64,000 nucleotides of DNA from Saccharospirillum sp. (lineage in GTDB: Bacteria; Pseudomonadota; Gammaproteobacteria; Pseudomonadales; Natronospirillaceae): contig JAIUML010000007.1 in the NCBI GenBank assembly GCA_022565595.1, forward strand, positions 1 to 64,000, written 5' to 3'. The position numbers were made by a program, and so were the translations under genes. Under the pieces are notes generated by a model. It was not told the DNA's origin and made no database searches. It saw nothing but the letters and a program-made list of their open reading frames with translations. Below are positions 33,169 through 38,164 of this stretch, in pieces. Position 1 is the first letter of the stretch. Every line of letters begins with the position of its first letter.

Positions 33169-33200
33169 AAAAAGGGCAGTGCCAACACTGCCCTTTTTTT
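33169..33200 (+). terminator. Intrinsic terminator of the importer operon
   Basis: AAAAAGGGCAGTG (33169-33181), loop CCAA, then CACTGCCC (33186-33193) followed by seven T (33194-33200). The A-tract on the left makes it able to terminate the convergent M23-hydrolase gene as well. Confidence 0.93.
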
Positions 33201-33231
33201 GTACTACGAAACAACGCCTTCCTGAACTTCT

Positions 33232-34728
33232 TCAATCACTACTGAAATACCCATCCCGCAGGAACTCGACAACCAGACTGCGCACCTTTTCATCGTTCAT
33301 GATAAAGGTATGGCCGGACTCAACCACTCGAAAGCCCTCAGCTTCTGATAATTGCGCACTGGAAACCGTGACCTTGCCGTCGTGTGCATCGTCAAAGAGA
33401 AAGTTGAACCAGGGGTCACTTGAGCGTACTCCAGTGATAATCCCGACCCGTTCGTTGATCGGACCAATGCGATTGACCAGAGCATTTTCCTGAGTACTGA
33501 GTTCCATGGCTGCCGGCCCGAATACCCATTGAAACCAGGGTTGGTCTCCGAGCGTATCGATGATTTCACTGCCATGATTGGGTGGGCTCAGCATCACCAC
33601 AGCGCTATCGTCGGGCAGTTGCCCCCATTGCAGCCAATAGCGAGCCAGAATGCCGCCCATGGAATGAGTCACAAGGTGCACTCGCTCGTAGCCTTGCTGG
33701 CGCAACTTCTCGACTGCGTTGGCTGCATAGCCGGCCAATTCCTGAAGGGATTCGCTTCGACTGGGGTAACTCTGATTGCAGGTCACATAACCTTCTTCGG
33801 CCAGAGTACTTGCCAGACGCTCCATGGAGCGATCGGTTCGACCCAAGCCATGCAATAAAACCACGGCCTCAGTGCCCTCTCCTTTTGGCTCACAAAGGTC
33901 TTCAAGACGGGGGACCCAAAGTGCCGCGTCCGTGCGCACCTCACCGATATTAATGCGCCAATCCAGATGGGGGCCCGTACTGCGCCCGGTTGAGCCAACC
34001 GCCGCAACGACTTGCCCCTGTTTAACTCGGTCACCGACGGCTACATCAATGCGTGAAAGGTGCAAGAAACTCGACGATAACCCGGCGCCATGGCTGATGA
34101 TGAGAGTACCACCACTGTAATAGAGGTCATCTTCTGCCAGTACCACCTCGCCACCAGCCGGCGCCAGAACTGGCGAACCCTGAGGGGCTGCGATATCAAT
34201 GCCCCAGTGAGGCGCACCAGGCACTTCATTCAGGATCCGCTGACTTCCATAGACACCCGTAATTCTACCTTGTACAGGCCAGATAAAGGGCGCACGCCAG
34301 TGATTGCTCTCTATGGATTTCAGTCGGGCATTGCCGACAGCTTCGGCTTCCCGGCGAATGCGTTCCATTGCATTAGGCGGAGGCGTAACAAAGCCTTGCT
34401 GCAGCCCATCGATTCGCTGCACCTGATAGTTTCGCGACTCCACTTTTGGGCTGTACTCACGCTCTGTTCCGTCCGGTAAACTGATGATCAGGCGTTGCTC
34501 GCCTTGCATTTCACGATCAAAGCCCAGCAAGAAATAGCCATCTTCGTCTACGACTATGCGTTTGTCATTAAACCAGACTCGGCTTTCCGGCTCTGTCAAA
34601 CCAACGAAGAAGCCGCCACTGCGCCATTCGCCATAACCGGGTAAGTCTTCTTCATCAAGCGCTGCCATTACTGGCCAGGCAGCCAGCAAAGCACCAACAA
34701 ACACAACACGATATAAAAACTGACTCAT
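33232..34728 (-). CDS. Exported fusion of an M23 (LytM-like) peptidase and an alpha/beta hydrolase
   Basis: One unbroken frame of 498 residues. A signal peptide (VVFVGALLAAWPVMA) is followed by a beta-rich region (30-105), an M23 peptidase domain (about 145-275) and an alpha/beta hydrolase domain (about 287-495). M23 marks: H174-x-x-x-D178 in HWGIDIA, the His of FLHL, and TGPHLDWRIN, which has H-x-D in place of the usual H-x-H, a form common in one M23 subgroup. Hydrolase marks: oxyanion LLHGLGRT, nucleophile S356 in THSMGG, SPPNHGSE and the C-terminal His of SGHTFIM. It would act in the periplasm or outside, on peptidoglycan and an ester or lipid. These two domains are usually separate genes. 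It stands alone, converging on the importer. Confidence 0.88.
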   Translation of the reverse strand: MSQFLYRVVFVGALLAAWPVMAALDEEDLPGYGEWRSGGFFVGLTEPESRVWFNDKRIVVDEDGYFLLGFDREMQGEQRLIISLPDGTEREYSPKVESRNYQVQRIDGLQQGFVTPPPNAMERIRREAEAVGNARLKSIESNHWRAPFIWPVQGRITGVYGSQRILNEVPGAPHWGIDIAAPQGSPVLAPAGGEVVLAEDDLYYSGGTLIISHGAGLSSSFLHLSRIDVAVGDRVKQGQVVAAVGSTGRSTGPHLDWRINIGEVRTDAALWVPRLEDLCEPKGEGTEAVVLLHGLGRTDRSMERLASTLAEEGYVTCNQSYPSRSESLQELAGYAANAVEKLRQQGYERVHLVTHSMGGILARYWLQWGQLPDDSAVVMLSPPNHGSEIIDTLGDQPWFQWVFGPAAMELSTQENALVNRIGPINERVGIITGVRSSDPWFNFLFDDAHDGKVTVSSAQLSEAEGFRVVESGHTFIMNDEKVRSLVVEFLRDGYFSSD

Positions 34729-34797: not shown

Positions 34798-36003
34798 ATG
34801 ATTGTGACCCCGGTTCTGGTTATCAACTCGGGCAGTTCTTCTTTAAAATTTTCGTTGTTCGACATGGCATCCGATCAGGAACTGTTGAGCGGCCAGGCGG
34901 AACGCCTGAACACCGGTGAAGCCAGCTTGCGCTGGCGCAGTGGGCAACAAGGCGACACCCTCTCCATACCGGATGAAGGTCATGCTGGCGCGCTCAAAGC
35001 CCTGTATCAACTGCTGCTCAGCCTGGATCACCTGCCAAGTACCCCTCTGAGTATAGGCCACAGAGTCGTTCACGGTGGTGAGACCTTTTCTGACTCCGTG
35101 GTCATCAATGAAAACGTAATCAGAGCCATAGAGCAATGTTCACGATTGGCACCTTTACACAATCCCGCCAATCTTCTGGGTATCCAGGTCATGCAAAAGC
35201 TCTACCCGGATGTCCCTCAAGTGGCTGTATTTGATACCGCCTTTCATCAAACACTCAAGCCGGAGTCTTTTCTCTACCCGCTCCCCTGGTCCCTCTACGA
35301 AGAGCAAGGCGTCAGGCGTTACGGCTTTCACGGCACCAGCCATCGCTATGTCAGCCAAAAAGCGGTAGACCGCTTGAAACTGGATCCGGACCAACATGGC
35401 CTGGTCTGTGCGCACCTGGGCAACGGCTGCAGCGCTGCGGCTGTGCGCAACGGCCTCAGTGTCGACACCACCATGGGGATGACGCCTCTTGAAGGCCTTG
35501 TCATGGGTACGCGCAGTGGCGATGTTGACCCCGGGCTGCACGAATACCTCAGTGATCGACTTGGCTGGAGCCTGACTGAGATTACCGAAATGTTGAACCG
35601 TCGCAGCGGTCTGCTGGGCCTTTCTGGCCTCTCCAACGATATGCGCACCCTGGTGGAGGCTCTGGACGCCGAGCATGAAGGCGCACGCCGCGCCATAGAC
35701 GTCTTCTGTTTCCGCCTGGCGCGGCAAATTGGGGCACTGGCGACCTCTCTTGGGCGTCTGGACGCCCTGGTCTTTACCGGCGGTATTGGCGAGCACTCGG
35801 CGTTTATTCGGCAAAATGTGCTGGATCGCCTGGGATTGCTGGGCTTTGTTTGCGATGCAAATCTGAACGAACAACATGGCGGAAACAGCGGCGTTATTAC
35901 CACATCAACCAGCACTCCGGCACTGGTGATCGCTACGCGCGAGGAATGGATGATCGCACGGGATGCACAACAATTGACTTTCTTGCCAATTCGCGACAAC
36001 TGA
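34798..36003 (+). CDS. ackA: Acetate kinase
   Basis: Cytoplasmic enzyme of 401 residues that interconverts acetyl phosphate and ADP with acetate and ATP. Family signatures: VLVINSGSSSLKF at the N-terminus, IGHRVVHGGETF, VFDTAFHQT, YGFHGTSHRYVS and HLGNGCSAAAV, then FTGGIGEHSAFIR and the final ATREEWMIARD. All are intact. The next gene, pta, starts ten bases after the stop, so the two form the classical acetate overflow operon. Confidence 0.97.
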   Translation: MIVTPVLVINSGSSSLKFSLFDMASDQELLSGQAERLNTGEASLRWRSGQQGDTLSIPDEGHAGALKALYQLLLSLDHLPSTPLSIGHRVVHGGETFSDSVVINENVIRAIEQCSRLAPLHNPANLLGIQVMQKLYPDVPQVAVFDTAFHQTLKPESFLYPLPWSLYEEQGVRRYGFHGTSHRYVSQKAVDRLKLDPDQHGLVCAHLGNGCSAAAVRNGLSVDTTMGMTPLEGLVMGTRSGDVDPGLHEYLSDRLGWSLTEITEMLNRRSGLLGLSGLSNDMRTLVEALDAEHEGARRAIDVFCFRLARQIGALATSLGRLDALVFTGGIGEHSAFIRQNVLDRLGLLGFVCDANLNEQHGGNSGVITTSTSTPALVIATREEWMIARDAQQLTFLPIRDN

Positions 36004-36013
36004 GGACTGCAGT

Positions 36014-38164
36014 ATGGCACAGCACGCCTTTTTTCTGACCGCTACGGTGACTGGCACCGGCCTGACTTCTGTCTGCCTGGGGCTGGTCAGAGCCTTGCAA
36101 CAACTGGGTGTCAAGGTAGCGTTCTGCAAGCCCATTGCCCAGCGCTACAGCGAAGATACCGGACCAGAACGTTCCACCCACCTGATTAATGCCACCCTGG
36201 GCCTGACACCGGAAGACCCGATGTCACTCTCTTATGCGCAACAACAACTGGCGAGCAACCAGACCGATACCTTGATGGAAGAGGTCATTCAGTTGTATCA
36301 ACAGTCAGCAGGGGATGCCGATGTCGTCGTCGTAGAGGGACTGGTTCCCAATGCGGATGAGAGCTATATCGGCAAGCTGAACGTCAATATGGCCAGGGCA
36401 CTGGATGCCGACATCATTCTGGTCGCAGCAAAAAACAACGACAGTGCCGAACAACTGAACGAACGCATTCAGATGTCGGCCAGCCTCTATGGAGGCCTGC
36501 GCAATCCGCGTGTACTTGGCTGCATCATAAACAAGGTTGGGGCACCAGACCCGGATAGCCAACAACTGCTGACTGAAGAATCCCGCCATACTGCACCGAG
36601 TGATGCCGACCAGCGCGAAGCCATGCTGAGTTCACTGAACGTCTTTGATAAAGACGTTTTTCGTTGCCTGGGTGCTATCGAATGGAACCCCAAATTGATG
36701 GCACCGCGCATGATAGATATCTGTGCCCATCTCAAGGCCAGCCCTCTGTTTGAAGGTGACCTGACTCGACGCAGAATCCACAGCATCACCATCTGCGCCC
36801 GTACCATGAAAAACATGCTTCATACGCTCAAGGCAGGCGCTCTGGTGGTTACGCCAGGGGATCGGGATGACATCCTGCTGGCCAGTAGTCTGGCCGCCAT
36901 GAACGGCGTACCTTTGGCAGGGTTGATCTTCACCGGTGACCTGAAACCCGAACCGGATGTACTCAAGCTTTGCCATGCGGCCTTTGAAACCGGCTTGCCA
37001 GTGCTGACCACCCGCTACAACACCTACCGGGCTGCACAACTGCTCGATAGCCTCGACAAGGAAGTACCGGTTGATGATGTCGAGCGCATGGATTCAGTCA
37101 TGAACGCCGTTGCCGCCAACCTGGACGGTGCCTGGTTGGCGCAACGGGCTCAGGTCAAGCTGGAACGCTTGCTGTCGCCACCGGCCTTTCGTCACCAGTT
37201 GGTGACGCGCGCACGTCTGGCTCACAAGAAAATTGTTTTGCCCGAGGGCGATGAAGTCAGAACCGTTCAAGCGGCGGCCTTTTGCCATCAAAAAGGCATT
37301 GCCCATTGCGTGCTGCTGGGGCGTCCGGAACATGTACGCAAGATCGCGCAGAGTCATAACATTCACCTGCCCGACGACATCGAAATCATCGATCCGGACA
37401 AGGTTCGTCATCGTTACATAGAACCCATGGTGGCGCTGCGTGAGCACAAGGGCCTGAGTGCACCCATGGCCGAAGCTCAACTGGAAGACACCGTCGTTCT
37501 CGCGACAATGATGCTGGCCGAGGGGGAAGTCGACGGCCTTGTCTCCGGGGCGGTTCACACCACCGCCAATACCATTAGACCGGCATTACAACTGATCAAG
37601 ACCAAGCCGGATGCCAGCCTGGTGTCGTCCATTTTTTTCATGCTGTTGCCTGATCAGGCTGTGGTTTATGGTGATTGCGCAGTCAACCCTGATCCGAATG
37701 CTGAGGAACTGGCAGACATTGCCATACAATCCGGCGACTCAGCCCGAGCCTTTGGTATTGAGCCTCGTATTGCCATGATCAGTTATTCTACCGGTGAATC
37801 CGGTTCTGGAACCGATGTCGAAAAAGTGCGCAAGGCGACCAGTCTGGCGCGGTCCAAACGACCGGATCTGATGATTGACGGCCCGTTGCAATACGATGCT
37901 GCCAGTGTACCCACCGTTGCTGCCAGCAAAGCACCTGACAGCCCTGTCGCTGGTCGTGCGACGGTCTTTATATTCCCGGATCTGAACACTGGCAACACCA
38001 CCTACAAAGCGGTTCAGCGCAGTGCCAACGTGGTCAGCATTGGCCCCATGCTGCAAGGCTTGCGCAAACCGGTCAATGATCTGTCGCGAGGGGCCACCGT
38101 CGATGACATCATTTACACCATTGCCCTGACCGCGATTCAAGCCAATGACAGTCCAGATCACTGA
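36014..38164 (+). CDS. pta: Phosphate acetyltransferase
   Basis: Long, three-domain form of 716 residues (as in E. coli), converting acetyl-CoA and phosphate to acetyl phosphate. The N-terminus has a P-loop-type dethiobiotin synthase-like domain (FFLTATVTGTGLTSVCLG), the middle is a DRTGG domain, and the C-terminal 330 residues are the catalytic PTA domain with KKIVLPEGDEVRT, DGLVSGAVHTTANTIRPALQ, MLLPDQAVVYGDCAVNPDPNAEELADIA and ISYSTGESGSGTDVEKVR. It sits ten bases after ackA. Confidence 0.97.
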   Translation: MAQHAFFLTATVTGTGLTSVCLGLVRALQQLGVKVAFCKPIAQRYSEDTGPERSTHLINATLGLTPEDPMSLSYAQQQLASNQTDTLMEEVIQLYQQSAGDADVVVVEGLVPNADESYIGKLNVNMARALDADIILVAAKNNDSAEQLNERIQMSASLYGGLRNPRVLGCIINKVGAPDPDSQQLLTEESRHTAPSDADQREAMLSSLNVFDKDVFRCLGAIEWNPKLMAPRMIDICAHLKASPLFEGDLTRRRIHSITICARTMKNMLHTLKAGALVVTPGDRDDILLASSLAAMNGVPLAGLIFTGDLKPEPDVLKLCHAAFETGLPVLTTRYNTYRAAQLLDSLDKEVPVDDVERMDSVMNAVAANLDGAWLAQRAQVKLERLLSPPAFRHQLVTRARLAHKKIVLPEGDEVRTVQAAAFCHQKGIAHCVLLGRPEHVRKIAQSHNIHLPDDIEIIDPDKVRHRYIEPMVALREHKGLSAPMAEAQLEDTVVLATMMLAEGEVDGLVSGAVHTTANTIRPALQLIKTKPDASLVSSIFFMLLPDQAVVYGDCAVNPDPNAEELADIAIQSGDSARAFGIEPRIAMISYSTGESGSGTDVEKVRKATSLARSKRPDLMIDGPLQYDAASVPTVAASKAPDSPVAGRATVFIFPDLNTGNTTYKAVQRSANVVSIGPMLQGLRKPVNDLSRGATVDDIIYTIALTAIQANDSPDH

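Follow-up and report, generated by a model that had tools for sequence, protein, structure and literature searches.

Is a protein that carries an M23 peptidase and an alpha/beta hydrolase in one chain real, and what would such a joined protein do? The question is raised by a gene in the window, which here means the whole 64,000-nucleotide stretch of Saccharospirillum DNA that was analyzed. A 498-residue open reading frame at 33232-34728 on the reverse strand starts with ATG and runs without an internal stop. The features of the gene and its surroundings, with the grounds for each, are as follows.

33232..34728, reverse strand: whole gene for the 498-residue fusion protein (continuous frame and 10 full-length homologues elsewhere)
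34657..34728, reverse strand: predicted signal peptide, about residues 1-24 (hydrophobic N-terminal segment)
34333..34632, reverse strand: beta domain with a helix near the N-terminus, about residues 33-132, seen also in 2HSI and Pgp3 (structure prediction and matches to known structures)
33934..34212, reverse strand: M23/LytM peptidase domain, residues 173-265, with H174, D178, H223, H254 and D256 (PF01551 and invariance in the 11 fused proteins)
33961..33969, reverse strand: H254-L255-D256, a third motif H-x-D in place of H-x-H (alignment to Pgp3)
33871..33903, reverse strand: 11-residue linker, residues 276-286, with Cys279 (alignment of the 11 fused proteins)
33238..33870, reverse strand: alpha/beta hydrolase domain, residues 287-497, with the putative triad S356, D450 and H473 (PF12697, residue invariance and lipase fold matches)
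34798..38164, forward strand: divergent neighbors that we take to be ackA and pta, context outside the protein (same arrangement in relatives)

The Pfam profile Peptidase_M23 (PF01551) matches residues 173-265 with an E-value of 1.9e-28 (98.9 bits against a cut-off of 28.7), and the lipase-type profile Abhydrolase_6 (PF12697) matches residues 289-408 with an E-value of 2.3e-8 (35.4 bits against 26.3). By profile and fold, the window protein is thus an M23 peptidase whose third motif is a variant one, and the chain continues into an alpha/beta hydrolase. A sequence-only reading of this DNA had described one frame with one signal peptide, an M23 fold and then an alpha/beta hydrolase, and the two profiles occur in exactly that order. 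The active-site residues that it named (H174, D178, H254, S356 and H473) all lie where it placed them; H223 in FLHLS, D256 in the third motif and D450 in DGKV are added here. The N-terminal segment has a mean hydropathy of 2.12 over 12 residues, and the corresponding segment exceeds 1.8 in 10 of 11 fused proteins and reaches 1.74 in the remaining one. The protein is probably exported to the periplasm, and a periplasmic two-enzyme protein is the best reading that the sequence predicts.

The gene stands singly. It diverges from the ackA-like gene, their start codons lying 69 bases apart, and on its other side converges with the final gene of a transporter-like cluster, presumably of the branched-chain amino-acid or urea type. 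Between the converging genes lies a perfect eight-pair hairpin (33170-33203) flanked by A and T runs, which resembles a two-way terminator; the terminator scan of the window listed none, although this hairpin with its T run is visible by eye.

A frame that joins two normally separate proteins could arise from an assembly or sequencing artefact in which the stop separating two genes was lost. The full-length fusion is present in ten further genomes, in the same single, stop-free frame across the junction, at 47-64% identity to the window protein, which rules the artefact out and leaves it practically no chance. The sequence-only reading had named two findings that would undo it, such an error and relatives that all possess two genes, and had singled out positions 33840-33900, covering the linker and the first hydrolase strand, as the place to inspect. 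Neither finding was made: alignment through that stretch is intact in the ten relatives, two of which carry a two-residue insertion, and apart from that insertion the junction is unbroken among all 11 fused proteins. Identical proteins were entered once in this alignment. It contains 127 positions that are invariant, out of 498 in the window protein, of which 57 fall in the M23 half, 68 in the hydrolase half, one in the linker (Cys279) and one outside these stretches. All eight catalytic or metal residues of both domains are invariant in 11 of 11. In comparisons against the window's gene, third codon positions differ at 0.52-0.72 and second positions at 0.16-0.38 in both halves; by these sequence measures, both halves of the fusion are under protein constraint.

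The distribution of the fusion is narrow. A search of 96 relatives matched both halves in the window's own genome, in the other five genomes from its genus (59-64% identity) and in five genomes from elsewhere in the family (47-49%); no other genome among the 96 gave a match spanning both halves. When each half was searched alone in 22 genomes of the family, 11 had the fusion, eight the M23 half only, two the hydrolase half only and one neither, and the fusion was present in five genera. Beyond the family, samples of the order (390 genomes, E 1e-79), the class (369 genomes, E <= 1e-40) and the phylum (398 genomes, E 1e-70) yielded no fusion; at most 3-4 candidates per genome were scored there, at strict thresholds that a diverged fusion could escape. 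Among 72,556 plasmid records, none of the 3405 that matched showed at least 80% coverage at one place, and none of 396 matching records among 50,697 phage records held the fusion. All matches outside the family thus comprise one half only, in agreement with the expectation that the two parts are normally separate proteins. On these comparisons the fusion is real, old and conserved.

Several other long matches were encountered in these searches. A longer match in genome G359 (query 14-301) was rejected as read-through beyond a stop into unrelated sequence. A related M23 domain at L137 (G768:C1:422647-423366) lies inside a 769-codon open frame and is possibly another multi-domain form, and M23 matches with long open frames (514-522 residues) occur in G360 and G250.

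The first half resembles known M23 proteins in its predicted structure. The whole-chain model has a mean pLDDT of 67, with most of residues 30-270 confident and the region after residue 400 poor, and structural matches of the M23 half span model residues 31-274. The best match in the PDB is 2HSI, both by sequence (E 5.2e-36) and by structure (Z 25.0, rmsd 2.3, 214 residues). A further match is 6JMX, the Pgp3 protein of Campylobacter jejuni (Z 24.6, rmsd 2.7, 230 residues). Against the NCBIfam model NF052530 (Heli_ShapePgp3), the window protein scores 128.2 bits, below the curated cut-off of 300, which places it outside Pgp3 proper.

In the alignment to Pgp3, H254 corresponds to H247 and D256 to H249. 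According to the text of PMC6978369, the metal ligands of Pgp3 are H168, D172 and H249, with H216 and H247 activating water, and the enzyme is both an endolytic and an exolytic peptidoglycan peptidase. D256 therefore stands at the position of an expected zinc-ligand histidine. Since its third motif reads H-x-D, the window protein falls within the M23 superfamily by profile and fold and outside it under a strict H-x-H definition. The sequence-only reading was right that the motif is present, and went too far only in so far as the motif is taken as peculiar to the fusion. All 11 fused and all 52 single M23 proteins have H174, D178, H223 and H254, and H-x-D is present in every one of the 11 and in 47 of the 52. 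The longer form H-x-D-x-R (33955-33969, reverse strand, in the window) is kept in 58 of these 63 rows, distant genera included, in a sample picked by similarity to the query and by the loci retrieved, which favors H-x-D. Of the remaining rows, one has H-x-C-x-R and four have H-x-H with S, S, T or N replacing R; three inspected M23 paralogues from the window's genome, of five found, have H-x-H-x-E. The retention of H-x-D-x-R therefore points to a subfamily trait with a partner residue, as opposed to decay in the window protein, and a motif typical of the sampled subfamily is uninformative about the fusion. From these alignments, H-x-D-x-R proteins look like an M23 subfamily with its own metal site, separate from the question of the fusion. 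Neither the PDB match nor the literature searches turned up a solved or assayed H-x-D-x-R member, and with the motif so common among sampled M23 relatives its metal chemistry is worth testing.

The substituted ligand could also be read as a loss. The M23 half would then serve chiefly as an anchor on peptidoglycan or as a regulator and would cut few peptides itself (compare EnvC and NlpD), its metal site weakened by the H-x-D change, and the hydrolase would be the working part. The replacement of a zinc-ligand histidine by D256 speaks for such a role, as does the existence of degenerate M23 domains that act as regulators, described in the text of a review (PMC9662197). Within the genus, moreover, the hydrolase half keeps 66-70% identity and the less conserved M23 half 54-60% (33235-34665, reverse strand, in the window). 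Decayed sites usually vary, however, and none of the five M23 active-site residues, D256 among them, varies among the 11 fused proteins; the spread of H-x-D-x-R across distant genera likewise argues against decay. Aspartate is also able to ligate zinc. An anchor or regulator with little activity of its own is accordingly considered somewhat unlikely, and an active M23 peptidase is preferred.

The second half carries the features of a serine hydrolase. S356, D450 and H473, in the triad order Ser-Asp-His, are invariant in all 31 proteins compared (11 fused and 20 stand-alone hydrolases), and D450 is the likely triad acid, judged by its place and invariance. The hydrolase sample, like the M23 one, was picked by similarity to the query and by the loci retrieved. 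When the hydrolase was modeled by itself from an alignment of two sequences, confidence was modest (mean pLDDT 64), but the core of the model matches 3ICV (Z 14.7, rmsd 3.5, 183 residues) and Bacillus subtilis LipA, 1ISP (Z 14.6, rmsd 3.0, 152 residues). Lipases, carboxylesterases and a phospholipase all appear among the fold matches, and with a likeness to small lipases about equal to that to carboxylesterases, a carboxyl ester is the furthest that the predicted substrate can be specified. No NCBIfam model reached its cut-off for the stand-alone hydrolases. A hydrophobic N-terminal segment is present in 19 of the 20, four of which have a lipobox-like pattern nearby, so the hydrolase was probably extracytoplasmic before the fusion. 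Two stand-alone relatives, L061 and L132, have no signal peptide by eye, and the family seems to include cytoplasmic forms. Scans of viral sequences for further hydrolase relatives gave one relative in one scan and none in two; a mixed alignment (A2) misplaced this relative and was excluded from the results.

The genomic position and the trees bear on how often the fusion arose. The divergent position beside ackA-pta is shared by 11 of 11 fused loci and five M23-only loci of the family; none of the other five M23-only loci examined, one of them from the same family, showed ackA. The hydrolase halves of the 11 fused proteins group as a single clade in a tree of 31 rows (95/89; recovered in 94% of bootstrap trees). 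Their M23 halves are not united in the unconstrained 63-row tree, where three changes are needed. In AU tests on a 52-row M23 tree, which omitted four long-branch H-x-H rows and seven near-copies from the 63, a constraint that unites the 11 carries a cost of 26.9 log units and is not quite rejected (p = 0.062); if six M23-only family members are admitted to the group, the cost is 4.6 and the constraint is well compatible with the data (p = 0.38). Two M23-only proteins of the family (L020 in G015 and L021 in G021) end in WVPxLxxLC followed by a short unrelated tail. No other protein among the 52 single M23 proteins has the VPx5C pattern of the fused linker, and this linker-like end is likely a scar left by the loss of a hydrolase domain. 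In the sequence that follows the M23-only family genes, no hydrolase remnant rose above noise (best E 0.005). The simplest history suggested by these data is one old fusion at the ackA-pta locus, in an ancestor within the family, with the hydrolase half later lost in some genera; gain may instead have been repeated.

Domain fusions hint at a common place or a common work. Outside the family, the hydrolase occurs in 16 of 55 genomes with the M23 protein and in five of 19 without it (74 genomes; Fisher p = 1.0), at thresholds of E <= 1e-18 for the hydrolase and E <= 1e-30 for the M23 protein that leave weak homologues uncounted. None of 39 neighborhood loci of stand-alone genes holds both halves (a fortieth region was a 100-base filler). 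With neither co-occurrence beyond expectation nor a shared neighborhood, genomics therefore shows no pathway link between the stand-alone halves. The sequence-only proposal that the two halves attack peptidoglycan together with a lipid-linked or esterified substrate is not supported by these unlinked genes, which speak for a harmless, accidental joining of two unrelated exported enzymes, each acting as its stand-alone relative does. The hydrolase half is, besides, missing from eight of the 22 family genomes, in which the M23 half occurs alone. An accident is harder to reconcile with persistence in five genera, with the invariance of both active sites and with a fusion-specific invariant cysteine in the linker, and we regard it as quite improbable.

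The reading that we favor, at a probability of roughly 0.55, is an exported two-domain hydrolase in which an M23 peptidase and an esterase are tethered at the sacculus, derived from one ancestral fusion. The M23 half, resembling Pgp3 and 2HSI, would bind peptidoglycan and cut its peptide cross-links or terminal D-Ala; H174, D178 and D256 would hold the metal, and H223 and H254 would activate water. The lipase-type half would cut a carboxyl ester through S356, D450 and H473. There are just two cysteines in the window protein. Cys279 belongs to the linker and is invariant among the 11 fused proteins; Cys317 lies in the hydrolase and is also present in all 11 rows. A predicted disulfide between them would fit the periplasm and may pin the linker to the hydrolase. 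The likely benefit of tethering would be to keep the esterase working on the sacculus at the points that the peptidase opens, and its substrate may be attached to peptidoglycan, part of a lipoprotein, a lipid or foreign. A bifunctional envelope remodeller would go further, coupling cross-link cleavage at an unusual His-Asp-Asp metal site to ester hydrolysis at the sacculus, for example by removing an acyl ester from peptidoglycan, lipoproteins or nearby lipids while the wall opens; no enzyme of this kind came up in the literature searches, and this coupling we hold to be unlikely. For an exported stand-alone alpha/beta serine hydrolase, being joined here to a peptidoglycan peptidase provides a first testable guess at its site of action.

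Literature searches found no paper on an M23-hydrolase fusion, and no activity measurement was found for any member. The main text of the M23 review reports more than 1,000 M23 domain architectures and does not contain the word lipase (PMC9662197); given that number, a new architecture alone is not extraordinary. Among known proteins, the putative M23 peptidase 2HSI from Pseudomonas aeruginosa is the closest by sequence and structure, but it has H-x-H as its third motif and no hydrolase domain. Pgp3 shares the N-terminal beta domain and the LytM domain over model residues 34-273, and the window protein keeps the H and D that serve Pgp3 as first ligands, along with the two catalytic histidines; Pgp3 differs in its H-x-H motif, in having no hydrolase domain and in an identity of 27% over the match. 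Stand-alone H-x-D-x-R peptidases from Aliidiomarina, Thalassospira and Wenzhouxiangella have the same third motif and 42-53% identity over the M23 half, whereas they stop at or shortly past the M23 domain and have other gene neighbors. On the hydrolase side, LipA has the same alpha/beta fold, but with about 20% identity and as a free secreted enzyme; the nucleophile of the window protein sits in an x-H-S-M-G motif, which we take to be that of LipA as well. The 20 stand-alone exported hydrolases of the same order are nearer, with 35-44% identity and the same triad, and they differ in being encoded by separate genes that never share a retrieved neighborhood with an M23 gene.
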